Source of the DNA: Brachionus koreanus
Lineage: Eukaryota > Rotifera > Eurotatoria > Ploima > Brachionidae
DNA: 48,235 nucleotides
NCBI GenBank assembly: GCA_016987375.1
Contig: PJRA01000048.1
Coordinates: forward strand, 2,046,375 to 2,094,609
Direction: 5' to 3'
Part shown: piece by piece, positions 2,269 to 42,597 of the stretch
Position numbering within the stretch: position 1 is the stretch's first letter
How the letters are laid out: each line of letters starts with the position of its first letter
Position numbers and translations under genes: made by a program
The notes under the pieces: model-generated
Databases searched by the model: none
What the model saw: the letters and a program-made list of their open reading frames with translations, nothing else
What the model was told of the DNA's origin: nothing

Positions 2269-3139
2269 TTAATTGTTTGTGATGATATCTTTAATCCAGT
2301 CGAAGTAGTGACTTGTTCTTGTGTATACACCACCATCACCACAACCATAACCCCAACTAGTAAGACCAGCCAATTGCCATCTATCTTGTGATTTGACAAC
2401 CAATGGACCACCTGAATCACCTTGACAAGTATCTTTTCCTTGACCATCTTCACCGGCACAAACGGCAACGGTAACATTAACACTGGTATATTTTTGTTTG
2501 CATCTTGAATCAGTCAAAAATGGCATTTCAACTTCCATCAAGTATCTAGAAACTGAGCCGCCAGAGTATAAGGTACCCCAACCAGTAGCATAGCTACTTA
2601 GTCCAGCAAAATTAAATGAATCGTCTGGAATACAAGCTGGCAAAATTTGGTCACTGTAAACCAATGGTGTCTATTTTATAAATTAAATAAAGTTGCATTA
2701 GAGTAAAATTTTTAAAATATATTACGCTCAATCTCATCAAAGCGATATCATTTTGTAAAGTATATTGACTGTATCTTGGATGGATGAAAATTTTAGATAC
2801 TTTTCTAGAATCAGCATATGGTTCTGGATTTGATCTATCATGTAATCCAAATCTCAAATTATAGCTTGATGGGTAGTTACGTCCATAGACACAATGAGCA
2901 GCAGTAATAACCCATTCCTTGTTTATGATCGAACCACCACATGTGAATCTACCATTGTATTCCATAGCCATTTGCCAACCCCAGTCTTCTTTGTCAGCTG
3001 CTACACCACCGACAACCTTATCGGCTTCTTTTCCTCTGATTTCACTAATTCTTCTACCACAATTCGACTCGTTAATAACGGTAGAATCTTGGGCAATAGC
3101 TAGACTAGCTAAAAATGCCAAAAAAACAACTCCTCTCAT
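2269..3139 (-). CDS. Secreted trypsin-like serine protease (copy 1, inverted)
   Basis: Two exons, 3139-2726 and 2670-2269, joined by a 55-bp phase-0 GT-AG intron, encode 271 residues. Residues 1-16 look like a signal peptide. A propeptide with C27-G-R-R precedes the activation site K41|VVGG. The triad is H82 (TAAHC), D131 (NDIAL) and S224 (GDSGGP). D218, six residues before the serine, sits at the chymotrypsin-189 position and predicts cleavage after Lys/Arg. Cysteine spacing fits four disulfides, including one tying the propeptide (C27) to the catalytic domain (C151), as in chymotrypsinogen. The ATG at 3139 was chosen because the same MRGVVFLAF start occurs in the copy at 24985; an upstream in-frame codon is not an ATG. 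Likely a digestive enzyme. It lies about 20 kb from, and opposite to, its three paralogues. Confidence 0.95.
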
Positions 3140-3184
3140 TTTTTGTCTTTTCAAAATATAACTTTGTAACAAAATTCAAATTAA

Positions 3185-6354: not shown

Positions 6355-7767
<1,413 letters not shown>

Positions 7768-9079
7768 TTTGAATGGTATAAAATAAAGGTATTAAATGGA
7801 AAAACAAGGTTTTCTAAATTAAAAATAGAACAAAAAATTAGATTTTAAGCTTTTCGAATATTTTTTTATAAATTTTTGTTTTAAAATAAAATGAATCGTG
7901 TTTGAAATAAAATTTTAAGCTTTGTGCTAACCATTTCTTGCTTAGATGATCCAGTTTAAGAACAAAAATGTTCAATTAGTATATGCAATAAAATATTCTA
8001 TTTAAAACAATCGTGCTGGTTATCCTCCCTAGCAAAAATGGCTTTTTCTTAAGCTAAAAGCTGCTAATGCATTAAAACTAATTTTGCAATTTTGCAAATT
8101 TAATTTATACTTTTTTTTTTATTAATAGAAATTAGAGAAATTTTTTTTTTGTTCTCTAGTTGTGTTTAGCAATGGAAATTTATACTTTTCGCTTTGGCAT
8201 TATTTGTGTGTCGAATCAACAAATACTAATCAACACAAGAATTTCTATTTGGTCGATAAGAGCAACACGACTTGATTAGTTGGAATTAATAAAAACAAAT
8301 AAAATAAAAAATGAAGTATATGCAAAATAAATATTTTTAACCCCAATTCGTTACTTAGTTATCGAGAGTCTTGTTATTTCTATGTTTTCAATGAATCACC
8401 CCTCTATTAAAAAAATTGCTATTTTTACAATCTAAATTGTTGATCCAAATTTATGATTGGTTGCCATGGTTACCATAGAAACAACCGCGTTGGCTGAACA
8501 CACTAAGGACCGTATCGAAAAGAAAAAAAAACAATTTCTAACCTTTTTCAATCAATGTTGCTATTTATCCTATTTGGCTATTAGTGAAAAAAAATTTTAA
8601 TCAAGCCATTTTTAAAAGCTATATTTTATTCATTCTCATTTTCGAAACAAGTTCATCATCTATTTGGATTAAATCTAATTTATATGGATTATTTACGTTA
8701 AATATTTGCTCACCAATATGGCCAAGATTAACTTAAATGTTTTCTTAAGCAAGAATAATCTAGAGCACAAAAATGAACGCTCGCTTAAGTTCAAAGTTCA
8801 TTAAAATGCTACTCATGCGAAAATAAAAACCTCTTTTTAAAATGTGAATAATTATTTAATTCTAAAATTTCCAAAATAGTTATTATGCTTGACATAATGC
8901 CATTTCTTTCTAACCATGCCATATTTGTTTATTTAATCTATTTATTCTTTCACATTGCTGACAGAATTTAAAATTTTCAATCATCTAAATAAAAAATATT
9001 CTAAAAGTATTGAATTTATCAGGTCTTTATTGCTCAAATAGCTTCTAAACAAATACAAACTGTGAAAATTGATTTAAAA
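7768..9079. other. Divergent intergenic region, beta-tubulin / SUZ12-like
   Basis: Shared upstream region of two genes transcribed in opposite directions. It holds overlapping X-box motifs at 8460-8482 and otherwise AT-rich sequence. An AG at 9021-9022 preceded by a pyrimidine-containing stretch could be a 3' splice site for an unseen upstream exon of the plus-strand gene. Confidence 0.6.
8460..8482. promoter_or_regulatory. Overlapping RFX-type X-box motifs
   Basis: Two overlapping 14-mers are present. GTTACCATAGAAAC (8469-8482) fits the X-box consensus GTHNYY-AT-RRNAAC fully; GTTGCCATGGTTAC (8460-8473) fits with one mismatch. RFX factors bind this motif, mainly at ciliary genes. It lies about 0.7 kb before the tubulin ATG and 0.6 kb before the SUZ12-like ATG, farther than usual unless a 5' UTR intron exists. 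Confidence 0.5.
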
Positions 9080-11290
9080 ATGAATTTGAGAAAGAGTGGT
9101 CGATTGCGACACAGAAATGATATGATTCCAGAAGCCAGAACCAAGACACAGAAGCGTAAACGCACATGGAAAAGCTCGCAGATGAAACGAGCAATTCAAA
9201 TGGTCAATTCGGCAGGCTATCGAATGTCGGAGGCGGCTCGTAAATTTCACATACCACTGTCGACTCTTGCCTCTTATTTAAAACAAGGTAATTCTATTGA
9301 ATTAGATGAGAGTGACACTGAAGAAGAGAAAATGGACGAGTGTCAATCATTTGAAGATATCAGTGTATGTCTTAGTGACGTAGTGTCCGACAAAGAAATT
9401 GAGACAATTTCAGTGTCATCATTAAATACTGTAAAGAATGATTTTAGTAATGGGCAAAAATTTTTAATGGTTGCTAGAAAATCTACTTGTCCGTATAAAG
9501 TAATGATTAAAAATAATCCTGTAACAATTTGCTCAAATTCTGATGAGACAAAAATTAGTAAAGAAAAAACTAAAAGAGATGAATTTTATCAGCGCGATCA
9601 AATAACAGACACACAAACATTTATTGATTCATTGATTTTAAACAAAAATAAGCTAAATAATTTAGCAGAATTTGAAAAGCCGATCAAAATTTATTCATAT
9701 TTGAGCATTAGACAGCGATTTCATCCGGTTTTTTTGAACAGAAATTTAAACTATTTGCACAAACATTCTCATTTTACAACTATTTCTAGAAAAAAATTCA
9801 AAATAGATAATATCTATGGAAAAAAAAGTTTTTCCACTTTTCCAAACCAAATTTCTTTTAGACCAGACACAATTTTTATTAATAACAAACTTGATATTGA
9901 TTTTATCTCACTGAACATGGATAAAATCAATGAATCCATTTGTGTTGACATATCTGCCATAAAACCAAATGATTTTGTTCTTATAGACAAAATTGACAAT
10001 AAACATGTTCAATTGGAGATACAAAATGAGAAAATATTAATTAAATTGTTAACTAATAATTTCATATCGATTCAAATTGACTCATATTTGAATAAAAAAT
10101 TCAAATCTTTAGCAATTAATGTCAAAATTTTGGATAAAATATTTAATTTTTACTATTCATTTTCTGAAATGTGTAAATTTTTAGAAAACAGTCCTAGAAC
10201 AAGCCCGTCCAAAACAGAATTTTACGATTTAACATTAAGATTAAAATCAGGCGACACTTTTAAAGCATTCAAGACTGCTCAGAGTCTAATTGAATCATTT
10301 AAAAATTCTAATTTGATACAGTTAAAGCTTAAAGTGTCTAGATCAGAACAGACTAAAGAAAAACAACCCCAAGTCAATAGACTAGAGCATATTAGTTCAA
10401 ATATAATTTATCAATTTACTGACAAGAACAGTAAAAAGTTGATCACACGAACAAATAGTTTGCGGTGTCCATTCTGCTATATAGACTCATTTTTTGATTA
10501 TCCTTCTTTGATAAAGCATTTGAATAGCTCTCATTTTAGAATCAAAGTCAAGCAGCTATGTCATCAAAATGGTGTTCATTCACTTAAACTGGATTTGGGT
10601 TTAGATGAAACATTCGATGGATCTTTTACTGGAAGTCTGCATGATTTGATAAAAAATAGTCATCTCGGTTTTACACTATCTCGTTTAGTGCCCACTCGAC
10701 AAACAAGTGTTGATTCGACCGAAATATTAGTCAATAAACGAAATTTTAATTTAAATTTGGAGAATTTGGTCAAAAATGAACATTTGACCAGTGATGAAAT
10801 TTCTTCACTAAATCAAATACAACAGCAATTGATTTGTGTAAGCAGCTCGATTGATCAAGCAGCTCAGTACAAAAATAACTTTATGCAAAGAGTGTACTAT
10901 CATGCTAGAACTAGCCAGCCTGTTCACATAGACGAATTAGATTATGATTCAGATTCAGAAATGGATCCAGAATGGCTCAAAGAGTTGACTGTGCTGCTAA
11001 TTAATGATTTTGCAGATGTTAACCAAGGTGAAAAAGAGCTCATGAAAATGTGGAGTTTGTATTGTTTAAAGCATAATTTTGTGGCCGATTCACAAATTTC
11101 CTCAGCCTGTGAACAATTTATCGATTCAAATGTTAATCAATTGATCAAAACGAATTTGGTTAATAATTTTATACTTCATTTAGCTAATTTGAATGATCAT
11201 TCTTTATTGAAAAAAAATGATTTTGTGAAATTAATTGACTATTTGTACATTAAGATAGATGAGGCCAATAATATAACTAAAATATTCTGA
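9080..11290 (+). CDS. SUZ12-like PRC2 subunit with N-terminal pipsqueak HTH
   Basis: A single 2211-bp open frame encodes 736 residues (human SUZ12 is about 739). In order: basic N-terminus; pipsqueak-type helix-turn-helix at about 28-72 (SEAARKFHIPLSTLASYLKQ); acidic linker; a segment at about 198-245 starting FEKPIKIYSYL that matches the conserved SUZ12 N-terminal interaction region; C2H2 finger C463-x2-C466-x13-H480-x4-H485; and a VEFS box at about 602-715 (DSDSEMDPEWL, DVNQGEKELMKMW, CLKHNFVAD). SUZ12 scaffolds PRC2, which methylates histone H3 Lys27 in the nucleus; the VEFS box contacts EZH2. SUZ12 normally has no pipsqueak domain, so the N-terminus is the anomaly. The ATG at 9080 is the first in frame; the frame is open back to 9014, so an upstream exon is possible. 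Absence of introns is unusual among neighbours and could mean an old retrocopy. Confidence 0.9.
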   Translation: MNLRKSGRLRHRNDMIPEARTKTQKRKRTWKSSQMKRAIQMVNSAGYRMSEAARKFHIPLSTLASYLKQGNSIELDESDTEEEKMDECQSFEDISVCLSDVVSDKEIETISVSSLNTVKNDFSNGQKFLMVARKSTCPYKVMIKNNPVTICSNSDETKISKEKTKRDEFYQRDQITDTQTFIDSLILNKNKLNNLAEFEKPIKIYSYLSIRQRFHPVFLNRNLNYLHKHSHFTTISRKKFKIDNIYGKKSFSTFPNQISFRPDTIFINNKLDIDFISLNMDKINESICVDISAIKPNDFVLIDKIDNKHVQLEIQNEKILIKLLTNNFISIQIDSYLNKKFKSLAINVKILDKIFNFYYSFSEMCKFLENSPRTSPSKTEFYDLTLRLKSGDTFKAFKTAQSLIESFKNSNLIQLKLKVSRSEQTKEKQPQVNRLEHISSNIIYQFTDKNSKKLITRTNSLRCPFCYIDSFFDYPSLIKHLNSSHFRIKVKQLCHQNGVHSLKLDLGLDETFDGSFTGSLHDLIKNSHLGFTLSRLVPTRQTSVDSTEILVNKRNFNLNLENLVKNEHLTSDEISSLNQIQQQLICVSSSIDQAAQYKNNFMQRVYYHARTSQPVHIDELDYDSDSEMDPEWLKELTVLLINDFADVNQGEKELMKMWSLYCLKHNFVADSQISSACEQFIDSNVNQLIKTNLVNNFILHLANLNDHSLLKKNDFVKLIDYLYIKIDEANNITKIF

Positions 11291-13909: not shown

Positions 13910-16187
13910 CCGTAAAACCTTGCAAACTACCCCGGGGTTAAAGTGTGTAATTTGCTATAGCCCCCCACCATAATATATGATATAACCCCATGGGTTTAAA
14001 AAAAAAATTCTGTATTACACCGGGGTTGTATTAAAAAATTAGTTAAAATTCTTATAATAATACTTACAGATTTTCAGTATAACCCCATGGGATAATTATA
14101 ATATTGTCTCATGGGATTGCATTATTAAAAATAATACACACCCATGAGCTTAAAATTTGTAGAAATTTGCATCATCATACACAAGCTTTGAACTTTGAAC
14201 AAAATTTAAAGTCAAGTCAGGTTAAATAGAACGTATTTTTTTTTATTATTTTAATTCTCTTCTAAAATTTTGACTTAAATAATAATAATTGTTAATATTG
14301 ACTTAAAAACTAACATGAAAAGTCCACAACTATCGCCTCTTCCTAAAAAAAAAACGAGGTAGGCCGACTAAAGAAGAAGCAGCTGAAAGACAGGCAATAC
14401 TACCTGCAGCCAACGAAAATCGTCTGATTGAACCACTGTGATCATCTACGAATTCGGCAGCACCGACTTTTGTTGAAGTTGGTGCTCAATCAAGTTCATC
14501 CTCGTCTATTAAGTGCACAATCAATTAGCCCAACTACTTCAACTCCAAACACCCAATCTAATAGTCCAATAAATCGTCATGCTTATCGTCTCTCATTAAA
14601 AATTAATGTAGTAAGACATGCTGAAAATTGTGATATAAGTAAAGCAAGTAGAAAATATAAGGTGGACAGAAAAACGATCAGAACTTGGATCCGATCTAAA
14701 CCTGAATTACTTGAAGAAGCCAAAAAGAGAAACAAGTTTAGAATATCTAAAGGTGATACCGCTCAATTTCCAGAACTTGAAGTCGAACTACATGAATGGA
14801 TTTTGAGTAAAAGACTAAATGGAAATTTCGTGAATAAACGAATGATAATCACTAAAGCACTAATAGCTAATAAACATGAAAAATTCACCGCATCGAATGG
14901 TTGGTTTCATAATTTTTTACGAAGAAAAAATTTGGTCATGCCTAGAGTCACCACAAATGGACGTGAACTACGATAAGAAGCTGATAAAACAATAATGGAT
15001 CATCTAAAGTTTTGTAGCGATCAGTTTGTTCTAAGAGAATTAAGCCGAGATTTAATTATCAATATGAATGAAACATCTACATATCTAGATAGTCCTAGAA
15101 GAACAACATACTCCGAGTCTGGATTGAAACGCGTACCTGCAGTTACAACTGGGAACGAAGCTACTCGTGTGTCAGTTGCTTTTTCAGCAGCCGTTTCTTC
15201 CAAAAAATTGAAACCTATGATTTTGATTCCACGTAAAAAGCCGCTCAAAAATTTTATGCCACCAAATAACGTAGTTGTTGTCTATGGTACAAATGGAAAT
15301 TTTAATGAGTTAGTTATCAGTAGTCATTATATTGAAAAGGTTATAAAGCCATATATGATTGTAAACGGGTTTGAAAAAGTTAATTTGATGATTGATTGTG
15401 CACCATGCCATTGTACACCAACAGTAAAAAATGCTTTTGGGGCTGCAAATATTGATGTAACATATATTCCAAAAAGACTAACTAACCTTTTGCAGCCAGC
15501 TGATATCTCTTGGTTTCGACCGTTGAAATCATCATACAATGAGTTTTAGACTGATTGGCTGTTAAATTCGGATAAAATCTACACAAAATCAAACAATGTT
15601 AGATCACCAGGATATGCGCTAATTGTTCAATGGGTGAGTTCAATTTGGGAACAATTCGACAAAATGATTATTCAAAACTCGTTTGATCAAGCAGGAATAA
15701 CATCCAACATTATCGACCTATTTTATAGACATCTTAGGCATTTTATTATTAATCAAGAATTTATTGATGATGTAGAGGATGATAATGCGCAAGATTTGAA
15801 CGCATTTATTTCAGGGGATGAAGCTAACATTCATGATTTAGGTGATGACTTTTACGATGATGAAGATAATTCAGACGCAGAAATGGCTTAGTTTTTGTAA
15901 AATATTTAAACATTGTATAGTATTGTATAGTTTCTTTTTTTTATATTTTTTTTTTAATTTTTTTTAAAATTTTTTTTTCGAAAGTACCGAAATTTTCTTC
16001 TAAAAGCCCAGTCAAAAATTAAACTTTTTTTCATATTACCCCATCAATTTAAATATATAATTTCAATATAAGCCCGGGCTTCTAATTTATTTTTTTTAAT
16101 ATAATTTTAGAGATTAAATTTCTGCTAAATTATAACCCTCCCATTTTCTCGTTTGAACCCCTTGGGGTAGTCTGCAAGGTTTTACGG
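13910..16187 (+). mobile_element. pogo-type (Tc1/mariner superfamily) DNA transposon, decayed
   Basis: The 2278-bp element has terminal inverted repeats starting CCGTAAAACCTTGCA at both ends; about 24 bp match with one mismatch, then ACTACCCC on both sides. TA flanks it at 13908-13909 and 16188-16189, the expected target duplication. Subterminal repeats include AACCCCATGGG at about 13984 and 14080 plus diverged relatives. The transposase frame inside is broken, so it cannot move itself, though its ends could still be used by an active relative. Confidence 0.9.
14313..15891 (+). pseudogene. pogo/Tigger-like transposase pseudogene
   Basis: A DDE transposase of the pogo group, DNA-binding by origin and now inactive. 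The 5' part has an AT-hook-like KKKRGRP motif and then several frameshifts and stops before 14428. From about 14575 a pipsqueak/CENP-B type helix-turn-helix (SKASRKYKVDRKTIRTWI) and a second CENP-B-like helix-turn-helix follow. The catalytic core is readable: the first acidic position is NMNET where the family normally has NMDET (codon AAT at 15067), the second is MIDCAPCH, and the third is LQPADISWF. Two in-frame stops, TAA at 14974 and TAG at 15547, cut the otherwise single frame. The acidic C-terminus ends at 15891. Confidence 0.88.
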
Positions 16188-16463: not shown

Positions 16464-19400
16464 TTAATTCCAAATATCCTCAAAATTAATTGATATTTCA
16501 CTCAAATACGCAAGATTTTTAATTTGCTTCTGATAAAATGTCATATCTTGAAAAATCATCCTAGAAAAATATTTTTAAAATAAAAATTTCACTTTGATTG
16601 AGCTTTTATAAAGAAAAATTAAAAACTCACGCATATTGAGGTCCACCATCTCTCGAAACTTTTAGCTGTATTAATCTATTTTTTAGCCGTGTTTTAAATT
16701 TTTCATCAACCTGAATAAACAGCTTTTTTATATTTGTTTCTGGTAATATGTCTATTAACAATTGATAGGTTTTTTCAATTTGATAGCAAATGGATCGGAA
16801 ACACTGGGACGGAACTGGAGCTTTAACTTCATATACAGAAATACTTTCACCCAATTTGTCATCGATCATGTAGACCAATTTGTTGTTTAATTCGTTAATG
16901 TGTTCCTGAAAGTCCAAAATTAACTTACTAAATTGTCGTTCGACATTTGTTTTTTTGTCAACTATTTTATCTAAGAAGTTATTTCTTATAAATGGAATAA
17001 ACTTGAGAACAGTATCTAATGAACGTAATGTCAAGGCCAAAGTTTTGAATGTAATGACATTGAGAAGACCCGCTTCAATGGCTCCAACACCCAAAATCAT
17101 TTTAAATGTTTTGCGATTAAATATCTTAAAATTTTAGAAAATAAAAAAATATAAAACAAAAAAAAATAATTACGTTGTAGATTTCAACAATTCGATTAGA
17201 AACTTCATAATAGAAAGTAGGAGTTAAAAAGCTCAGCTGTACATATTCAAGGGTTATTTTTATTAAAGTAAGTACAATACCAAAAATAATGTGCTTTTCT
17301 TCATTGATGTAAAGAAAATTTGAACCAGATTCATTTGATATTCGACATACAAAATTTGATGGATGGTTGAAAAAATTTTCATTAAGTGTGTCTATTATAT
17401 TTTTAAAGTCAGATGGTGGTTCTACAATTTTCCAAGATTCACTATCAATTGAAAGAACTAGTTTATCTTTGAGTTCCGAATGAATCTTGTTCAAAAATTT
17501 GCTTGTTTGATTTTGTTGCCATGAGCGTAAAGTTGCCGTTTTATTTTTTAATTCATTGTCTATTTTGATTAGAAATGTGTCGATTAATTTTAATAATGAA
17601 CTGAAACTGTGAATGCTAATTTTATCTGAATTTTCTTCCTTTAGGTAAAAAATTTAATGTTAAAAGTGACCAAAATTAGTTACGTGGAAATTCATTTAAA
17701 TGAATTTAAAATGAAAATATAAAAATAATTAAATAAAAATAATTTTTTTTTAATCAACTGTTAAATCGACTAATAAATTATGTTTTTAAAAAATGAAAAA
17801 AAAAGTTTATACTTAAAAAAGAAAATTATCCAATTTAAAGCTATTCGAAATACTAATTATTTATAATGTTTTTTTTTATATTATTTTCATACTTATTTTA
17901 ATTTATTGTGATGATACAACTACTACTTCAAAAAAACAATATCTAATTAAAATTTTTGCCTTTAATCTTTAATTTTGAATCTTTTTAAGTTTTAGCTTTT
18001 GTATTTTTGTTAGTCATTAATTTTGGACTCAAATAAGATCAATTAATAGAAAGATAAAACACTGGAATACATATAGGAAGCCAACAAATCGCGATAATAC
18101 TATACGCTGATGATATCCTACTCCTGAGTACAGAAAAAAACAAAATCCAAAGAGCGATTGAAATTTGTGAAACATANNNNNNNNNNNNNNNNNNNNNNNN
18201 NNNNNNNNNNNNNNNNNNNNNNNNNNNNNNNNNNNNNNNNNNNNNNNNNNNNNNNNNNNNNNNNNNNNNNNNNNNNNNNNNNNNNNNNNNNNNNNNNNNN
18301 NNNNNNNNNNNNNNNNNNNNNNNNNNNNNNNNNNNNNNNNNNNNNNNNNNNNNNNNNNNNNNNNNNNNNNNNNNNNNNNNNNNNNNNNNNNNNNNNNNNN
18401 NNNNNNNNNNNNNNNNNNNNNNNNNNNNNNNNNNNNNNNNNNNNNNNNNNNNNNNNNNNNNNNNNNNNNNNNNNNNNNNNNNNNNNNNNNNNNNNNNNNN
18501 NNNNNNNNNNNNNNNNNNNNNNNNNNNNNNNNNNNNNNNNNNNNNNNNNNNNNNNNNNNNNNNNNNNNNNNNNNNNNNNNNNNNNNNNNNNNNNNNNNNN
18601 NNNNNNNNNNNNNNNNNNNNNNNNNNNNNNNNNNNNNNNNNNNNNNNNNNNNNNNNNNNNNNNNNNNNNNNNNNNNNNNNNNNNNNNNNNNNNNNNNNNN
18701 NNNNNNNNNNNNNNNNNNNNNNNNNNNNNNNNNNNNNNNNNNNNNNNNNNNNNNNNNNNNNNNNNNNNNNNNNNNNNNNNNNNNNNNNNNNNNNNNNNNN
18801 NNNNNNNNNNNNNNNNNNNNNNNNNNNNNNNNNNNNNNNNNNNNNNNNNNNNNNNNNNNNNNNNNNNNNNNNNNNNNNNNNNNNNNNNNNNNNNNNNNNN
18901 NNNNNNNNNNNNNNNNNNNNNNNNNNNNNNNNNNNNNNNNNNNNNNNNNNNNNNNNNNNNNNNNNNNNNNNNNNNNNNNNNNNNNNNNNNNNNNNNNNNN
19001 NNNNNNNNNNNNNNNNNNNNNNNNNNNNNNNNNNNNNNNNNNNNNNNNNNNNNCAAGCTCGCATTTTCGGTTTTTGACCCAGCATTATTTTGCACCTTTT
19101 TTGAATTTTATCGTCGCGTCGAAACATGAAATCTGCATTTTTATGCTCGCATCTCAAGGGAACCGATTTTAACATGAGAAGGATGGTCGCTTATTCGTGC
19201 ACTAAAACCTAAGAATCAGAAGTTATTCCATGCACGATGAACCAGCGGAGTACCTCTTTTATTGATAATATCTAAATACTATCTTTCAACTCATTTGATT
19301 AATAAATGTGACAAATATACCGATGATATTAAAGTTTTATCTAAAATTAAAAGTACCAAAAGACAAGTTATTATTTCAAAGAGATATAGATTATATTTCA

Positions 19401-21971
19401 GACTGATCGCTAACTTGGTCCTTGGATTTAGTTATCGAAAAATACAGTTGCATATTGCATATTGGTGGAAAAAAACTTCCTTTGATTATACTATTTATTG
19501 AAGATATGGCAAAAGAAAATTAACTGACTTAATTGCTTGATTTTAACGACTTGTAGTTATATCTGGGTAATCACAATTAAAGACATGTCGTTAAAATCGA
19601 CTAATTATATTAAAACAGCTCTTGAAAAAGATCTATGTATTAAAAATTATTTGAAATGGAGAAACAAAATCAAATATTTGTGAAGCCTCATGTAGAATTT
19701 GCCATAAATTCATGTTTTCAGGAAGATATATCGTAAATCGAGAAGGTACAAAGAAGGGAGACCAAGATCATTTCTTCACTTCGGAAATATGATTACTTGA
19801 CAAGAATTTTTGCTTTAATTTATTTAATTTTTTTTAAGTTTTTTAAAAAAATTTAAATTCAATTTAACTTGACTTGACTTTTGAACAAGTTTAGCTCTCA
19901 TTGAGTTTTAAAAATAATGAGAAACAGTTTATCTATAAATCTTTCTTGCTTTAGTCTGTTTTAATTATTTAATTTAGAAGGATTGAACGGAGTTGGCACT
20001 AAAATATCTTTTTATTTTTATTTAACTTTTAGATACTTTAATATCATGTCCAATAAATTCAACTTGAATCTTATAGATATATTTTTATACCTTATGTTCA
20101 AGTTAATCTTAAACAAATTATTTATAATTTTTGAATAAATTGAAAAATTTATATCATACAATATTTAAATATTGATTTTAGATTTACTATTAAAGAATTG
20201 ATTTACTTTAAACTTTGGATCCAAAACAGTAATAAGCATTTCTTGAACAAAATCAACTGTTTTATTCAACAAGTCATTTAATTTATCCTCAATTTTAAAC
20301 CATCCATTTTGACCAACAATTTCTTTATTTGATTCTCTAGAAAACTTAATAATTAGAATATTTTAATTATGTGCTTGTTAATATAAGTTCGCCTACTTTT
20401 CATAGGATTTATTCTTCTTAAAAACGTCAAGCATAAAATTAACAATCAACTTGAACAAAATTTAGATAAAAGATTAAAAAAATTTATTCTAATCAAAGTT
20501 TACCTCTACTCGGCAAATTATTATTTCAAAATTTTTCAACACAATTTCAATAATTTCTAAAAATTGATCAAATCTAAGAGATTTAACTTTTTCAATTAGT
20601 TCATAATTATTTGTGTCACTATTCAGCATGGAAATTTCTACATCATTATCTAATTGAGAAATTTTCTCAATAAGTTTTATTTTAAAAATCGACTTCACAT
20701 AAAGATCAATCTCTTCGCGGCTCAAATCAATGAAGTCATACGACTTAATTTTCATTAAACTAGAAACAAGTGAATAGAGTTCATTTTCATCCTTAATTTG
20801 GCATTTTTCTTCAACATCTCTACTTAACTCGCCATTAAGATATTTTATAAAGTCCTGGTTTATCATTTTTTCAATAACTTTACCAATTTCTTGGAATTGA
20901 GAATCAAAATGACGCAAGCAGCGAATAAACTTAAGATCATGTCTCAGCAATTCTTGACTTACACTGATTATGTCTAAAGCTCCGTTGTACTCGGATGATG
21001 CAAGGTGTACTTGAATGGCAGGCTGATTCTGATGCACTGTAGAGAGCAGCTCCATTTTATCCAGGAATTTTTGGTAGCGAATTTTTAAACTTACAAGCTT
21101 CAAAATTCGAATCGAACATATAATTGATTCTCGATTCAATGTTTGCATATTATGACGTATTTGTTTCGCTTGTGAAGACGTCTTCAGTATATGCTCCTGG
21201 ACCTCATCCTGAGAATGTATGGCGTTGAAAAATGTATTCGCTTTAGAAGAAATTTGTTTCGTTATGTGAGATTCGATTATGTCCAAATAGAGCGAAAACT
21301 GCAAAAGTTTTAAATTATTTTAAGCAAAAAATGGAATATACCTTGTTCAGAACCAATTTGCACCAATTGGCATCATTTGAAAACTCTTTTGTTGGCGATT
21401 CTAAAAATGGTCTTTGGACTTTTTGTATTTTTCTAATTGAAGCTTCGCTTTTTATTACTAATTCAAAAGTTTGCCGATCGGATAAATTAAAATTTGAATC
21501 AAAAAATGTCTTAAATTTAGAATAAAAAAAAATATTTTTTATTTAAATTCGATAATACTTGAGGAATTTGATCAAGACTTAATGAATTACTCTCATTTAA
21601 ACTCCTAATATTCAATTTTGAATTTGATGGAACATTTTTCAATAAGTTTTTATTATGGTGGTGTTTTTTTAGTCGCTTAAATTTTGGAAAAAAAGATTAC
21701 TATTAAGTCATTTAGGAAAAAGAAAACTCACTTCATTTGTTTCATTAATATGTGACTCAAAATTTTTGATGCCCAACTCAGACTTGATGATTTTGAAATT
21801 AGCGCTTTCAGTAAAGTCCGAACCCCAAGTTTTGGTGAACAAATAAGCCTTTTTGGTTCGGTCTTTGCGGGGATCATTTAGAACGGCAGCTAAGTTTGAA
21901 GAAAATATGGGCTTTGAAGACTGAGATGTTTCATGGTTCGGAATAGGAGAAGTTTTTTGGTTATTCAACAT
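16464..21971 (-). CDS. VPS54: VPS54, GARP tethering-complex subunit
   Basis: Nine exons: 21971-21732, 21675-21559, 21509-21342, 21298-20504, 20449-20397, 20336-20207, 17638-17174, 17124-16631 and 16560-16464. Together they give 2559 bp (852 residues plus stop) with consistent phases. Conserved stretches identify it: LNDPRKDRTKKAYLFTKTWG (31-50), QIPQTFFDSNFNL across exons 2/3, VHQNQPAIQVHLASSEYNGA in exon 4, and YEVKAPVPSQCFRSIC and GGPQYA in exon 8. VPS54 is the GARP subunit that, with VPS51-53, tethers endosome-derived vesicles at the trans-Golgi; its C-terminal region binds endosomes. The protein is about 120 residues shorter than human, mainly in the N-terminus and central linker. Exons 5 and 6 are short and least certain. 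The start at 21971 is the first ATG after a stop; an upstream exon cannot be excluded. Most introns are 43-70 bp, but intron 6 is 2568 bp and houses a LINE. Confidence 0.92.
18060..19266 (+). mobile_element. Non-LTR retrotransposon fragment with assembly gap
   Basis: Immediately before the gap, 18063-18176 encodes a reverse-transcriptase core with YADDILLLS, the catalytic Y-A-D-D motif. The frame has a stop just upstream, so the copy looks 5'-truncated. After the gap, 19054-19266 matches the repeat at about 31370-31575 and ends in TTTTATTGAT in both. The simplest reading is one LINE insertion: RT, hidden middle, then 3' UTR. The element runs opposite to the host gene VPS54. Confidence 0.7.
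18177..19053. other. Assembly gap (877 N)
   Basis: Unresolved bases inside the LINE insertion. Any reading frame spanning the gap is meaningless. Confidence 1.
19539..19598. repeat. Hairpin with 16-bp arms
   Basis: GATTTTAACGACTTGT at 19539-19554 is the reverse complement of 19583-19598 with one mismatch, leaving a 28-base loop. Function unknown; it may be the end of a transposon fragment. Confidence 0.5.
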
Positions 21972-22691
21972 TTCAACATCGTCTTTTAAGCTAAATCATT
22001 ATCAGATGAGATATAAAAACAATAATTAAATATTAAAATTGAGTTTTTCTTATTTTAAATTAAAATTTTAAAATTTATTCGAAATTTAAAAACATGTAAT
22101 AGGAAAATATTTTAAATTAATTATGTAAATGCATCCTATTTGCATATGAATATGTAAATTTAGAAATAATTTAAAATCAGTAAAATCACAAAATAGTGAT
22201 TATCATACTAAAATATATTTTCGAAAAATTTAAAATAATTAATTTCAAAATTTTAAGATCTGATAGATTTTTTTAATAGCAATTTTTTTTAGTTATCAAA
22301 TGTATTGGGTAATTGAAATTTAAATGATTTTTATTCACAGATAAATTACAAAATTTAAATAAATAAATTTTTATTTTATAATGCTAAATTTTGAGATATA
22401 AAATTTACCTAAAATGAAATATTTTTTAAATTTCAATACTAATTCTGTTAATAAGAATTAGTAATTAATTTGAACTGACGTAGGCTAAAAAGTTGAAAAA
22501 AATATGTCGTTTAACCATGTTAAACAACTAAGCAAGCTTCAATACAATTTATGAGTAAATGTTCATCAATTAAAATAAAATGATAAGAAAAACTTATGGA
22601 TATATCCAAAATGTTCACATTCGATTTGATTAGAATCCTATAGGTGTATAAATATATTTGAGTTAAACGAAAAAAAAAATAAATAAAAAAA
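21972..22691. other. Divergent spacer, VPS54 / trypsin copy 2
   Basis: About 720 bp between the two start codons. Apart from the trypsin TATA box, nothing was recognised in this AT-rich sequence. Confidence 0.6.
22647..22654 (+). promoter_or_regulatory. TATA box of trypsin copy 2
   Basis: TATAAATA starts 45 bp before the ATG at 22692. Position agrees with trypsin copies 1 and 3. Confidence 0.6.
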
Positions 22692-23538
22692 ATGAGACCT
22701 TTAATTATTTTAGCTGCTCTTGTAGCCACAATTTTGGCTGATTCAACTATTAATCCACCTGAATGTGGAAAAAGACCTTATGCTAATAAAGTAGTAGGTG
22801 GAACAAAAGCTGATCCTAAAGATTGGGGCTGGCAAGTATCTATGAATTTTAATTTTTACGGATTTATTTGCGGTGGTTCAGTTCTTAACTCTGAATGGAT
22901 TGTTACAGCTGCTCATTGTGTTGATGGATATCTAAATCCAAGTTATTATTCATTCGACATTGGTCACCATGATAGAAACAACATTGAATCATGGGCTGTT
23001 AGCAGAAAAGTAACAAAAGTTATTGCTCACCCAAGCTATTCCGACAGAACATTACAAAACGATATTGCTTTAATGAAACTAGACGTAAGCCTGAATTTTT
23101 AGTGTTTTAAAGTAATTAATTTTATTTAATTTAAAGCAACCATTGACTTTTACTGACGAAATTGTACCAGTATGTATTCCAGACGGTAGTGTTGATTTTG
23201 CTGGAAAAAGTTCATGGGCTACTGGCTGGGGAACTTTGACCTCAGGAGGATCAGTTTCAAGATATTTGATGCAAGTCGAAATGCCATTTTTGACTGATTC
23301 ACGATGCAAACAAAAATATTCTTCAGTTAATACAAGAGTTGCTGTATGCGCTGGTGAAACTGGTGAAAATAAAGACACTTGCCAAGGTGATTCCGGTGGT
23401 CCATTGGTCGTTGAAAATAATGGTAGATGGGAATTGGCCGGTATTACTAGTTGGGGTTATGGTTGTGGTGATGGTGGTGTCTACACAAGAACTAGCTATT
23501 ACTATAACTGGATTCAACAACAAATTTCAAACAACTAA
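22692..23538 (+). CDS. Secreted trypsin-like serine protease (copy 2)
   Basis: Exons 22692-23084 and 23137-23538, with a 52-bp phase-0 intron at the same place as in the other copies, encode 264 residues. A signal peptide of about 16 residues leads into a short propeptide (C25-G-K-R) and the activation site K33|VVGG. Catalytic residues are H75, D124 and S217, with D211 setting trypsin specificity. The propeptide lacks the MRGK/EIRGK stretch of copies 1 and 3 and is the shortest. First gene of the tandem array, 1.4 kb before copy 3. Its last 120 bp of coding sequence include a 104-bp block identical to copy 3. An AATAAA lies at 23601. Confidence 0.95.
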
Positions 23539-24984
23539 ATAATAATTTTCAAAATTTGAATTTTTTTTTCGATAAATTTTATTAATATTAACACGATTTA
23601 AATAAAATTTGATTAAAATTTAATGAAATATTTTCAAATTAAAAAAAAAACATAGAAATTAATTATAAATCTAATTTAAATTGTCCTAATATTTTCTTCA
23701 TTGAGAAAAATTGATTAGTTAAATAAGCTAAAAAAATATCTATTTTTGTTTTGATTTTTTTTATCTAATTTTTTAGAAGATCTTGCTATTTTTTTATCAA
23801 TAAAGATTTAAAATATTCAAAATCAAGGACAAATTAAGTAATCGGAATGATTAAAATGCCATTTAAATTTAATAATTTAGCTTACATTATAATTTGTGTA
23901 CATCACTTGCTAGCCCTCATTTGGTATTAAATGAAGGATTTTTTTAAATAAAATATAAAAGTAAATTTCTTTTAAAATCCCATTTCGAACTCAACAAGAT
24001 ATAATTTCAGAAGAAAAATTAAGGAATTAAAACGTGAAAAAATTCAACAAAAACTTAATTATCACGTTAAGCCTAATTACTAATGTCAACCAATTTTACC
24101 AAATTTAATATAAATAGCTTCAAAAAGAATTTAAAAAAAAAATTGAACTTTAACTTAAGAAAGCATGTTTATTTTAAATTTGAAAATTTAATGATTAATC
24201 TAAATCAAATATTTTATATGCACTTTAGAAGTTTATTAGTAGATAAAACGCATTTTGACATCTATGTCTTTTTTTTCTAAATTAATGTATTTGTTTTTAG
24301 AGAAAAGCATTTCTTTTCATAAGCTAAATAATTTTTTTTTATTACAGTTTATTTTATTTTTTAAAAGAAAAATTATTTTATCGAGATAAAACAACAAACC
24401 AAAACTTTGAAGTGTAAAATGACAGAAATATTTAATTTTTGTTATTATGCTTTAATTTAAAATTGAATAAATTCAAAAAATTTTCCTTTTTCATAAATAA
24501 ATTTATATATTGAATATAATCAAAATATAATTGAAAAAAAAAATTAATTTGTTTCTAGCGTTTTGTTCTTTTTTTTTGTGCATATCTATTAAAAGAAAAT
24601 TTTTGATCAACTTAAACTTCACATTCTATATTTAAGACACCATTTTGGGTGCATTTATTTGCAGGGAAAAACAGTAATTGCAAAATTTTTCAGAATAGAT
24701 CAAATAAAATTATTTTGGCGGTTAAGCTTAAATCAACAATAAAAAATATGGTTTTCAAATTTTAAATTTCAAAACTGTTTTCGAAAACGTTTTTGGCTTA
24801 AAACACATGTAAATAATTCATAAGAACTAAAATTATTATCTACAAACTTAAATAGTATTTTAAATATTATTACGAAATCGATTATAAAAATTATAAAAAC
24901 ATGCTTTTGCCCAATACTTTCCCATAGAACAAATATATAAATTTAAAACTGAATAAAGTATATCAAACATTTTTATAAATTAAA
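23539..24984. other. Spacer between trypsin copies 2 and 3
   Basis: 1.45 kb of AT-rich DNA with only chance frames, including a 65-codon one at 24083 that has a low-complexity composition and no family resemblance. Confidence 0.6.
24936..24942 (+). promoter_or_regulatory. TATA box of trypsin copy 3
   Basis: TATAAAT (extended to TATATAAAT from 24934) is 49 bp before the ATG, matching the spacing in copies 1 and 2. Confidence 0.6.
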
Positions 24985-25909
24985 ATGAGAGGAGTTGTTT
25001 TTCTAGCTTTTTTGGTTGCTTGTGCTTTTGCTCAAGATTCAACCACACTTAATCCATCAGGATGTGGTCGAAGAGTTTCAGAAATGAGAGGTAAAAGAGA
25101 TGCCGACAAAGTTGTTGGAGGACAAAAAGCTAATCCAGAAGATTGGGGTTGGCAAGTTGCTATGCTTTATAATGGAAGATTCATCTGCGGTGGTTCATTG
25201 ATCAACTCACAATGGGTTGTAACAGCTGCCCACTGTGTCTCATCTAACTTAAATCCAACAGCTTACTCATTCGACATTGGTATACATGATAGAAGCAACA
25301 AAGAATCTTGGTCTACATCGAGAAATGTCGTCAAAGTAATTATGCATCCAAGTTATTCATCTTCAACTTTCCAAAACGATATTGCCGTCATGAAATTGAG
25401 CGTATGACAAAATTAAATTATTTTGGAAAAAAAACTAAAATTCTTTAAGTCTCCAGTTACTTATTCAAGACAAATTGTTCCAGTATGTGTACCATCACCA
25501 AACAACGCCAATTTTGGAGGCTTTAGCAGGCAATTATTTTATTTATTTCATAACTTATTTTCTAATCTGTTTTTTTTTAATTAGTTGGGCCACTGGTTGG
25601 GGAACTTTGTATTCAGGAGGCTATACCTCAAGATATCTAATGGAGGTTCAAATGCCATTTTTGACTGATTCACGATGCAAACAAAAATATACCATTGTCA
25701 ATACAGCTGTTGCTGTATGCGCTGGTGAAACTGGTCAAGGAAAAGACACATGTCAAGGTGACTCTGGCGGTCCATTAGTTGTAAAAAATAACAACAGATG
25801 GGAATTGGCCGGTATTACTAGTTGGGGTTATGGTTGTGGTGATGGTGGTGTCTACACAAGAACTAGCTATTACTATAACTGGATTCAACAACAAATTTCT
25901 AACAATTAG
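24985..25909 (+). CDS. Secreted trypsin-like serine protease (copy 3, GC-AG intron)
   Basis: Exons 24985-25401, 25450-25529 and 25585-25909 encode 273 residues. The first intron (48 bp, phase 0) is shared with the paralogues. The second (55 bp, phase 2) is unique to this copy and begins GC rather than GT: AG|GCAATT to TTAATTAG. Removing it restores FSSWATGWG, which aligns exactly with FAGKSSWATGWG of copy 2; no GT nearby does so. Signal peptide at 1-16, propeptide with C27-G-R-R and a basic RGKR, activation at K42|VVGG, catalytic H83, D132, S226, specificity residue D220. Probably a gut protease, like its relatives. AATAAA at 25998. Confidence 0.93.
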
Positions 25910-26280
25910 ATTTTCTTCTATAAACTATTAATCAATTCAATTCCAAAAATATAGTTAATCATTTATAAATTTTTTTATTAATCATTAAAAGGATAAAAAT
26001 AAATATTTTTGCTAAAATTGAATATTTGAAAAAAAATGATAAAATTTTAAATTAATGAAATTAAATTTGATTTATACTAGCTTTACAAGCTAAAAAGATT
26101 CTTTTAATGAGTTGCTATTATTTTTTCGCTAAATCTAGATTGTTCAAACTATTCTACTTATTTTTTTATTTTGATCTATTTAAAAAGTTTTTGATGACTT
26201 AATTTAATGTTTTTTGCATTTAAATAATAACTAGAAAATGATTTAGTATTCCATTTTTTAAACTTTTTATTTTTTTGAAT

Positions 26281-27158
26281 ATGATAAAAAAATTTATACT
26301 TTTGATTATACTATTTAATGAAATTAGAGCTCAGAGTCAAAACGACACTAAAAATGTAAATTCTATTTTATGTGGGCAAAGGATAAAGAATGGAGAAAAG
26401 CTGCCCTATAAAATAGTAGGTGGGAATATAGCTGCTCCGGGAGATTGGGGATGGCAAGTAGCTATGCTTTTTAGTGGAAGATTTACATGTGGAGGATCTC
26501 TAATAAATTCCCAATGGGTTCTTACTGCGGCTCACTGTGTCTACGGGCGAAATTTTCCCACATTGTTCTCTTTTGCAATAGGCCTACACGATAGGTTTTT
26601 TCCAGAAAAATGGTCCGAAAAGCGAAAGGTTTCCAAAATAATCGTTCATCCTCTTTATGATCAATACATGCTTCAAAATGATATTGCATTAATCCAACTT
26701 GAAGTAGGAAAAAAAATTTTTTCTTAACAAAATTTAAATTCTAGCTTAATTTTGAGAGTCCAGTTAACTATTCTTCACAAATAGTGCCCATTTGTATATC
26801 TGATACAGCCGATATTTCAAACAAGCTTAGTTGGGCTACTGGCTGGGGCACCTTAAAATCAGGTGGATTTGTCTCTAGATATTTGAGAGAAGTTCAAATG
26901 CCGGTTTTGGATGACACTCAATGCCGTGAAAAATTCAAAATTGTTAACACAACGGTGGCAATTTGCTCTGGTCAAGAGGGTCAAAATAAAGACACTTGTC
27001 AAGGAGATTCTGGCGGTCCTTTGGTTGTATTCAATGACAATAGATGGCTTTTGATTGGTATTACTAGTTGGGGTTTTGGCTGTGGAGATGGGGGTGTATA
27101 TACCAGAGTTAGTTATTTTTTTGATTGGATTAGTCAAAGTCTACTGAATAGTGAATAA
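26281..27158 (+). CDS. Secreted trypsin-like serine protease (copy 4, divergent)
   Basis: Exons 26281-26703 and 26757-27158 with a 53-bp phase-0 intron encode 274 residues. Signal peptide about 1-18 (MIKKFILLIILFNEIRA), propeptide with C31-G-Q-R, activation K44|IVGG, catalytic H85, D134, S226 and specificity D220. The acceptor at 26755-26756 gives QLE|SPVNYS, aligning without gap to copy 3; an in-frame alternative acceptor 12 bp upstream would add LNFE. It is the most divergent copy, lacks the MRGVVF-type leader, and has no TATA box at the position shared by the others, so its expression may differ. The gene-model start is the ATG at 26281; the preceding in-frame codon is TTG. Confidence 0.93.
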
Positions 27159-34560: not shown

Positions 34561-35175
34561 GGTGAAAAATAAAAATCAAATTTTCAAAAAATGTATTTGA
34601 TCAAGCGTTAGAAATTGATTCTAAAAGAAAATTAGAAAAATGATTATTTATTTTGGATTTTTGTGAAAAAACCACAAATATTAATGCTACTATAAAACTA
34701 AAAACTTGATTTTAATGCAGACCAAAGCTTCAAAACATATCTTTAGAGCATATTTTTATAAGAATGTTTTAACATAGAAGAGATGGTGTTTATCGCATAC
34801 ATGAAAGTTGTGTTTTGGCTTATAATGCTGCAATATCGAACAAGCGATTACAGTATTAAAGTAATAATTGAAAAATCATGGAAAAAAAAGAATTGTAAAA
34901 ATTCTGAAAAAAATGAAAGAAATATTTTTATGATTCAAATGTTGTATTAATCAAATTGATTTGATTATTTTTTTAAAATAATTAATTAAGCGTTTTTTGA
35001 AATAACTTTTGAAAATCGGACTGAATTAGTGTTAATAGGTTGATCCAGTTTAATTTTTTTAAATCGGTTGTAACAGTTTAAACTCAAATAATTTAAATAG
35101 TTTTAAATTTTAGAAAAATAAAGGTTATTTTATACTTGATTAATGTTGTTTAAGTTTTTATAAATTTTTATCATT

Positions 35176-35925
35176 TTTGAGTGGTGGAAACGTTGGAGTA
35201 TGGAATTTAATGAATTCAAGGGTAAAGTAATGTACATCGGCAACTCAAAGATTGCTAAGCAAAAAATCTCAATGTTAAATGCAGACGGTTTGAGAGTTGA
35301 ATTAGCTGAGACTTCTGCTGAGCGCGATCNNNNNNNNNNNNNNNNNNNNNNNNNNNNNNNNNNNNNNNNNNNNNNNNNNNNNNNNNNNNNNNNNNNNNNN
35401 NNNNNNNNNNNNNNNNNNNNNNNNNNNNNNNNNNNNNNNNNNNNNNNNNNNNNNNNNNNNNNNNNNNNNNNNNNNNNNNNNNNNNNNNNNNNNNNNNNNN
35501 NNNNNNNNNNNNNNNNNNNNNNNNNNNNNNNNNNNNNNNNNNNNNNNNNNNNNNNNNNNNNNNNNNNNNNNNNNNNNNNNNNNNNNNNNNNNNNNNNNNN
35601 NNNNNNNNNNNNNNNNNNNNNNNNNNNNNNNNNNNNNNNNNNNNNNNNNNNNNNNNNNNNNNNNNNNNNNNNNNNNNNNNNNNNNNNNNNNNNNNNNNNN
35701 NNNNNNNNNNNNNNNNNNNNNNNNNNNNNNNNNNNNNNNNNNNNNNNNNNNNNNNNNNNNNNNNNNNNNNNNNNCCAACCAGTTCAAAAACAGACTGGAC
35801 AATGTCGGTAGGAACAAAAAAAATGAAAAGTCTACTAAAGCGGGACTACGTTAGTCTTCCTGTTTTGTCAGTTTAGTAAAACTAAACTTGACTGTAGAAT
35901 ATTAACTATTATTATTATTATTTTC
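35176..35925 (+). mobile_element. LINE 3'-part with assembly gap
   Basis: 35176-35329 encodes a typical post-catalytic reverse-transcriptase segment (WSMEFNEFKGKVMYIGNSK; related LINEs have FN-x-x-KCKVMHIG). After the gap the frame resumes with NQFKNRLDNVGRNKK, then a stop, then a 3' UTR with an (ATT)n tail at 35906-35922. The element is 5'-truncated. The gap hides roughly 150 codons, an appropriate length for the missing part. Confidence 0.75.
35330..35774. other. Assembly gap (445 N)
   Basis: Unresolved bases within the LINE; repeats probably caused the break in assembly. Confidence 1.
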
Positions 35926-40868: not shown

Positions 40869-42597
40869 ATGATAATCAATGGAACTTATCATCATCAACA
40901 TCAACAGCAACAACAACAACAGTCTCTTAGTTCAGAGACAGCTTCGGAGTTTTGTCTCAGAAATTCTCAAATGGAAGACCTCAACAACAACTTAGACTCC
41001 TCCATGAACAGAAAGTATTAATTAAAAAATAATTTTTTTTTTTCTAAATTATAAAATTTTATTTTTCTAAGTGGTTTTTTGACTAATGGTCAAAATGAAT
41101 ATTCGATCAAGTTAAAAAGTGAAAAAAGTGACTCGCATCAGACCAATTCGTTGGCACCCAAATGCGCCAACTGTCTACTTCCCATTGAGGACAAATTTAT
41201 TTGCAACATGATGAACATGTTCTGGCACGAGGAATGTCTCACATGCTCCCAGTGTTGCTGTATGCTCAATCAAAGCTGTTTTTTCAAAAATGGCCAGCTA
41301 TTCTGCAAAGACGACTACTTCAAGTTAGTTAACAAAAATTTAATAAATTTTTTTCTTGCTAGCTTTCGGCTTTTTTTTTGTTTCAAATTTTAAATATTTA
41401 CTTAAAAAAAATTACTTTATGGTCTCTAAAAAAACAAAAAGACAGGTACTAGAATACGAGTTTAAGTAAATATAATATTTGAGTGTAAATTATCTTCAAT
41501 ATTAAATTTAATAAACCTAGCTTTGTTTTCTCACAAGTTGACATGTTTCACAAATAGCGATAAGGCTTCAAAAGTATTCTAATAATTTTTTTTTTAGAAA
41601 TTTTGGCACCCGATGCCACTCATGCATGGATCTAATTGGAGCCAACGAACTTGTAATGAGAATAGAAACATTGAGCAGCAAACAGCTCATTTACTATCAC
41701 TTTAATTGTTTCAAGTGCTTGATTTGTGACAAGCAGCTGCAAAAAGGTGAAGAGTACATTTTGCGTTCAGAAGGCATATATTGCAAAATGGACTTTGAAA
41801 GATGTAAGCTAAAGTCTCATTTGGTCGGCTCATCACCGGCCTATTCTTTCAATAGTCAACAAAAATTGAGCAACAATTCCAACTCTAGTTTTAATTCACA
41901 GCCAAGCGAAGAAGAAAACAGCGTTGATTCGATCAAATATCGAATGGTGCTCGCTAATCAAACACAGAATGAGCAAGTTGGCAAAAAATCAAGTAGTAGA
42001 AGAGTGACCAAGCGACCTAGGACTATACTGAACGCCGCGCAAAGATACGACTTTCGCGAGGCTTTCAAACAAAGTCAAAAGCCCTGTCGCAAAGTAAGAG
42101 AGCATTTGGCAGACAAAACTGGTCTGAGTGTTCGTGTAGTACAGGTTTGGTTTCAGAATGAGAGAGCTAAAATGAAAAAAATGCAGCGCAGACAACAACA
42201 AATGAATAAATTCGGTGAATTGGAGCCTAATGTGAATAAGAAAAAAATGCCTGCAAAAAAGACTAAAAAAGACGCCCTGAGCAATGATGAAGATGACAGT
42301 ATGGATGAAGAAGTTTCAGAGGTAGATTCGGACGATTTTTCTGATGATGAGGAAAGTTTAGACTTGGATGAGTCCGAAAATAGAATAAATGGTCAAAGTT
42401 TGCCTCAACAGGCCAGTTTTCAGCCTCTACAACTTGCCGACTCGGATAATATGATGTCAGCTCCTGGCTATCATCATCAATCAAATGAGAATGAATGCAT
42501 GAACATGATGAATATTCAATTCAACCAACAGCAACATTGCCAAATGCAAACAAATCCAATAAATCGTTTGTACTCAATGCAAAATTCTTATTTTTAA
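40869..42597 (+). CDS. LMX1-like LIM-homeodomain transcription factor
   Basis: Exons 40869-41014, 41072-41323 and 41598-42597 encode 465 residues. The first intron lies before LIM1; the second divides the two LIM domains. The N-terminus has a His/Gln-rich run (HHQHQQQQQQQ). LIM1 starts at C80 (CANC) and LIM2 at C139 (CHSC); both show the expected Cys/His/Asp zinc-ligand pattern. The homeodomain is at about 270-329: KRPRTIL, then the LMX1-typical SQKPCRKVREHLA, GLSVRVVQVWFQN and AKMKK. Recognition-helix position 50 is Gln; position 52 is Glu where LMX1 usually has Gln. After it come a strongly acidic stretch and a Gln/Met-rich tail. LMX1 factors bind AT-rich DNA and specify neurons and dorsal structures. 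AATAAA at 42783. Confidence 0.95.

Follow-up and report, generated by a model that had tools for sequence, protein, structure and literature searches.

The fused SUZ12 frame

The window analysed here is the whole 48,235-nucleotide stretch of contig PJRA01000048.1 from the rotifer Brachionus koreanus. On its forward strand, an uninterrupted open frame of 736 residues codes for a SUZ12 protein, the scaffold of Polycomb repressive complex 2 (PRC2), that carries a pipsqueak-type (psq) helix-turn-helix (HTH) domain at its N-terminus. The frame runs from an ATG at 9080 to a stop at 11288-11290, within a stop-to-stop frame that begins at 9014. The features of this gene, SUZ12-B, are as follows.

9080-11290, + strand: SUZ12-B gene, intronless, with N-terminal psq domain (736 amino acids plus stop)
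9152-9295, + strand: basic arm and pipsqueak-type HTH, residues 25-72 (Pfam HTH_psq, AlphaFold2, Foldseek)
9296-9670, + strand: linker from psq to SUZ12 core, mildly acidic and of low model confidence, residues 73-197
9473-9493, + strand: ARKST(C/S)P motif, residues 132-138, invariant where covered
9671-9814, + strand: SUZ12 N-terminal segment FEKPIKIYSYL...KFK, residues 198-245 (match to solved SUZ12)
10397-10552, + strand: SUZ12 C2H2 zinc-finger region (Pfam Zn_SUZ12)
10853-11230, + strand: VEFS box (Pfam VEFS-Box, 4.9e-38)

The original prediction, made from the letters alone, had placed a psq domain (residues 28-72), FEKPIKIYSYL, a zinc finger and a VEFS box in one frame, and the open reading frame, Pfam and solved chains all bear this out. 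Pfam analysis of a 742-residue frame starting at 9062 revealed VEFS-Box (E 4.9e-38, 130.5 bits against a cut-off of 23) and Zn_SUZ12 (E 4.4e-7, 30 bits against 28), and the zinc-finger residues are C463, C466, H480 and H485, as first proposed. The best match to solved SUZ12 chains (2.6e-50) covers the FEKP segment and, separately, the half extending from the zinc finger to the VEFS box; the N-terminal FEKP/WDB1-like segment (residues 201-254 of the 742-residue frame) matches SUZ12 chain 8vnv_A with an independent E-value of 4.6e-6. The same Pfam scan found a single psq and no BTB match in the window protein. HTH_psq scored 19.4 bits in the protein (E 8.5e-4), one bit below its cut-off of 20.4, and 24.3 bits, above the cut-off, in a six-frame search of the genome (83.3 Mb, 92 contigs). 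Three related proteins exceed the cut-off, namely P0002 (26.1 bits), P0003 (31.4 bits) and P0007 of B. calyciflorus (22.2 bits); the first two carry psq and VEFS within one frame and P0007 carries psq together with VEFS. Since these three proteins also combine psq and VEFS, a chance match is very unlikely, and the psq-SUZ12 fusion in the window is confirmed as real.

A second SUZ12 gene and the age of the fusion

Two places in the genome match VEFS: the window and contig C48, where a gene at 302364-304934 on the reverse strand is modelled to code for 747 residues once spliced. A search for a second SUZ12 gene had been suggested at the outset; the spliced gene that it yielded, unnoted until then, does not refute the fusion because it carries the same N-terminal extension, so that both SUZ12 genes found in the genome have a psq-related extension. 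The modelled first exon on C48 holds the psq segment, the ARKST linker and the codons up to FE. Of two modelled GT-AG introns (275 and 52 nt), the first lies within the K codon of FEKP and the second just ahead of KFKVDD. This splice model is supported by P0008 of B. plicatilis (73% identity to the C48 protein), which spans both junctions in the same way. Genes for tRNA-Phe, tRNA-Gly and tRNA-Ile flank the C48 SUZ12 gene on both sides (locus L005).

Protein searches returned 2, 9 and 11 matches, the first having scored only the 7997 candidates with the largest numbers of words in common. Among the 11 distinct SUZ12 proteins matched, no named animal source other than Brachionus appeared, and the named relatives are from B. 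calyciflorus and B. plicatilis only; one scan confirmed no SUZ12 relatives in viral contigs. Together with the window and C48 proteins, they make up 13 rows, seven of which cover the N-terminal extension (six with the whole psq, P0012 with its first part only), while P0004-P0006 and P0009-P0011 are C-terminal frames whose N-termini lie outside the comparison. In the tree, the window protein groups with P0002, P0003 and B. plicatilis P0012, deposited as suz12-B, in clade B (support 100/99), and the C48 protein with P0004, P0005, P0006 and B. plicatilis P0008 in clade A (100/99). B. calyciflorus P0007 branches outside both clades with moderate support (87/90), and P0009 and P0010, the latter on a long branch, outside the Brachionus group (93/97). 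The duplication predates several species splits. An aligned N-terminal segment is present on SUZ12 of B. calyciflorus, B. plicatilis, P0002, P0003 and C48. Because the window falls in clade B, C48 in clade A and B. calyciflorus outside, all with the extension, the fusion predates the A/B duplication and, judging by this tree, also the split from B. calyciflorus. Loss of psq from all close relatives, named at the outset as an outcome that would count against the idea, is not what we observed: the domain is kept in Brachionus relatives.

Both modelled C48 introns are missing from the window copy at the exact junctions. Retroposition is the simplest account, the window gene being most likely an old retrocopy made from a spliced psq-SUZ12 mRNA. 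Two of the C-terminal frames, P0009 and P0010, start near the position of intron 2, thereby suggesting that this intron is old and was lost in the window copy; intron gain in clade A, instead of loss in the window copy, would be less likely. At third codon positions, the window and C48 genes diverge by 0.32 in the VEFS region (10880-11224), compared to 0.53-0.69 in four other longer stretches, and 0.40 in one 15-codon stretch. Gene conversion or synonymous constraint are possible causes of the low value in VEFS.

The psq segment, the ARKST motif and other genes

AlphaFold2 predicts a three-helix HTH fold for the psq segment (helices 32-44, 49-56 and 60-68), with a predicted local distance difference test (pLDDT) score of 84-89 over residues 31-70; the same helices reappear in the full-length model, the mean pLDDT of which is 44.7. 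Foldseek ranked the HTH of human LCoR first (probability 1.00, root-mean-square deviation 1.5 over 41 columns, 32% identity, with a weak E of 0.22). When the alignment profile was compared to the PDB, LCoR and CENP-B came next after SUZ12, with weak E-values of 0.22 and 0.41, respectively. A VIA-align listing gave no separation of psq from other HTHs, and the link of the segment to fly Pipsqueak holds at the family level only.

The segment is strongly basic (11 K/R and 1 D/E in residues 23-72) and is better conserved than its surroundings, with a mean pairwise identity among six proteins of 60% compared to 40% and 41% for its two flanks. Between the window and C48, it retains 58% identity over 52 residues (E 5e-13). 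A P-x-S-T-L sequence opens predicted helix 3 and is invariant in all six proteins. Psq proteins use this third helix to read DNA sequence.

The linker contains a further element, ARKST at residues 132-136, which the original prediction had left unremarked. ARKST(C/S)P is present in 7/7 rows covering it, and the residues directly after it (141-175) show 28% identity. When the residues of the window protein were shuffled 5000 times, 0.6% of the shuffles gave ARKS and 0.02% gave ARKST, figures for a motif picked after being seen. ARKST is identical to the histone H3 tail around K9 and resembles the K27 context. Its role could be that of an H3 mimic that becomes methylated, of a kinase site or of a structural turn. 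The methylated lysine of PALI1 and the JARID2 motif require an aromatic residue at position +1 for EED binding (PMC8319299). Because ARKST has a serine at +1, kinship with the PALI1/JARID2 motif was rejected.

Two candidate sources of the psq segment were tried and rejected. Used alone as a query, the segment found only the two SUZ12 genes (2/2 scored candidates), and no donor gene elsewhere. A Tc5/pogo-like transposase at 14428-15549, about 3 kb from SUZ12-B, consists of two adjacent open stretches (HTH_Tnp_Tc5 and DDE_1); it matches HTH profiles of the Tc5, Brinker and CENP-B types and gives no BLASTP alignment to psq. Elsewhere in the window, 6355-7659 is presumably a beta-tubulin-like frame. 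Trypsin-like serine protease frames form a local cluster (2269-3175 and 22683-27158; one Pfam-confirmed, the others named by eye). A Vps54-like gene occupies 16627-21319 on the reverse strand, reverse-transcriptase-like YADD residues lie beside 18029-19190, which like 35130-35876 reads as X in translation, and a LIM-homeodomain gene is at 41542-42597 on the forward strand.

At E up to 0.1, the genome search returned three more psq matches in addition to that in the window (C4:1268067, C1:2572649 and C1:2588888). The C1 pair, the two of the three that were scanned, showed psq-like matches only and no BTB domain, which argues weakly that the genome lacks a free Pipsqueak. On C1, two genes that face each other at a distance of about 16 kb (L010 580-3048 and L011 580-1932) share a near-identical psq-like domain and a conserved stretch without a Pfam match. 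Among Polycomb genes, we found one EZH-type gene with SET, MCSS and CXC domains (C9:1977459) and one place, on C47, with a PRC1-type RAWUL domain above the cut-off. No PCL/Mtf2_C match was found in the genome, with a profile too short to prove loss.

Known partnerships of psq proteins with PRC2 and the proposed role

Canonical animal SUZ12 has the same FEKP segment, zinc finger and VEFS box. The rotifer protein differs in having 197 residues before FEKP, with the psq-type HTH and the ARKST motif. The words helix-turn-helix, HTH and psq are absent from the main texts of two papers on SUZ12/PRC2 evolution (PMC9253717, PMC10638273), and we found no description of a psq-SUZ12 fusion in the open-licence PMC literature; EZH expression in B. 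manjavacas is treated in PMC5333405.

There are precedents for pairing a psq-type protein with PRC2, but in these the psq-type protein is a separate one. Drosophila Pipsqueak, which has a psq-family HTH in common with rotifer SUZ12, is among the separate factors proposed to act at Polycomb response elements in flies (PMC9122586, PMC7603765), and the psq domain of another fly protein, Dan, is required for DNA binding (PMC11178893). Whereas Pipsqueak is a protein of its own, the rotifer psq is part of a PRC2 core subunit, in a single copy and with no BTB match. LCoR, the top Foldseek match, likewise has a psq-family HTH (PMC6155025), and PALI1, a PRC2.1 subunit encoded at the LCOR locus, aids DNA binding by PRC2 (PMC8319299). 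A review lists an HTH for PALI1/2 (PMC8489530). PALI1 is nevertheless a separate accessory protein, described as vertebrate-specific, whose methylated lysine is followed by the aromatic residue missing from ARKST, whereas the rotifer psq sits on the scaffold itself. CENP-B and pogo transposases have a similar HTH fold.

We lean towards an explanation in which both SUZ12 genes encode the psq-related segment and the scaffold as one protein. The psq-related part of this protein is likely to bind DNA, by which PRC2 would be anchored directly at chosen sites. The psq domain would hold DNA, and the linker of about 125 residues would allow the PRC2 core to be brought along. Retroposition of a spliced psq-SUZ12 mRNA would have produced two scaffold versions, A and B, which would share one enzyme since a single EZH-type gene was found. 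In the rotifer, the segment may target PRC2, choose its sites and perhaps replace other recruiters. The original prediction held that this animal may have hard-wired sequence-specific targeting into its PRC2 core in place of a separate recruiter. What stands is that psq is fused to the scaffold, kept in Brachionus and found on both SUZ12 genes; the window copy as such is probably a derived intronless duplicate, and for this reason we regard the fusion rather as a feature of the Brachionus SUZ12 lineage as a whole.

Several observations temper this explanation. The controls of the six-frame search show that a weak psq match has little specificity, since 6 of the 14 control genomes give one at E up to 0.1 and 1 of the 14 gives one over the cut-off. 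The profile match is weak in C48 (12.7 bits, below the cut-off) and absent from B. plicatilis P0008; the N-terminal segments of both proteins nonetheless align with the remaining psq segments. In addition, B. plicatilis P0012 is short (320 amino acids, 43% filled in the tree alignment) and lacks psq helices 2 and 3 and much of the SUZ12 core, being either a decayed gene or a poor gene model.

The weak or missing profile match in clade A also agrees with an alternative, in our view unlikely, in which the segment serves for protein interaction or for nucleic-acid affinity in general, stabilising PRC2 on chromatin but not directing it to particular sites. The strong positive charge of the segment fits such a role, and PRC2 with PALI1 bound two tested sequences at similar affinity, a result taken to indicate possibly non-selective binding (PMC9122586). 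However, the psq scores of P0002, P0003 and P0007 exceed the Pfam cut-off, and the P-x-S-T-L that opens predicted helix 3 is invariant in all six proteins.

More doubtful is the idea that the window gene is a retrocopy heading for loss and that the C48 gene alone matters. The window copy lacks both C48 introns and the annotated B copy of B. plicatilis looks broken, but clade B frames are open across 724-736 residues in three of the four members, and identity to the window protein is 72% for P0002 and 56-57% for P0003. Codon position 3 also changes most between the window and C48 genes (in psq, 0.24/0.29/0.67 at positions 1/2/3, with a nonsynonymous divergence, dN, of 0.36 and a saturated synonymous divergence, dS, that is not computable). 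A gene-prediction or assembly artefact joining two neighbouring genes is very improbable and close to excluded: although the full-length relatives are predicted proteins, the frames are uninterrupted in the window, P0002 and P0003, protein records come from two named species and the unlinked C48 gene has the same domain order.

A bolder extension of direct tethering, which we regard as a long shot, is that Brachionus SUZ12 took over the jobs of accessory subunits. Psq would read DNA, and ARKST(C/S)P, methylated by PRC2 and held by EED, would switch the enzyme on at its landing site, making a self-targeting and self-priming PRC2 with two paralogues.

It has long been asked how PRC2 finds its targets; flies rely on separate DNA-binding recruiters and mammals on a set of accessory readers (PMC9122586). 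A PRC2 core subunit that has a DNA-binding-type domain of its own, kept in named rotifers, is a natural experiment, in which a change to a single domain of a single protein could test targeting. The unequal preservation of psq in the paralogues, with a stronger match in B and a weak one in A, offers a comparison within one nucleus. If direct tethering is correct, PRC2 in these animals would likely hold DNA without a separate recruiter.
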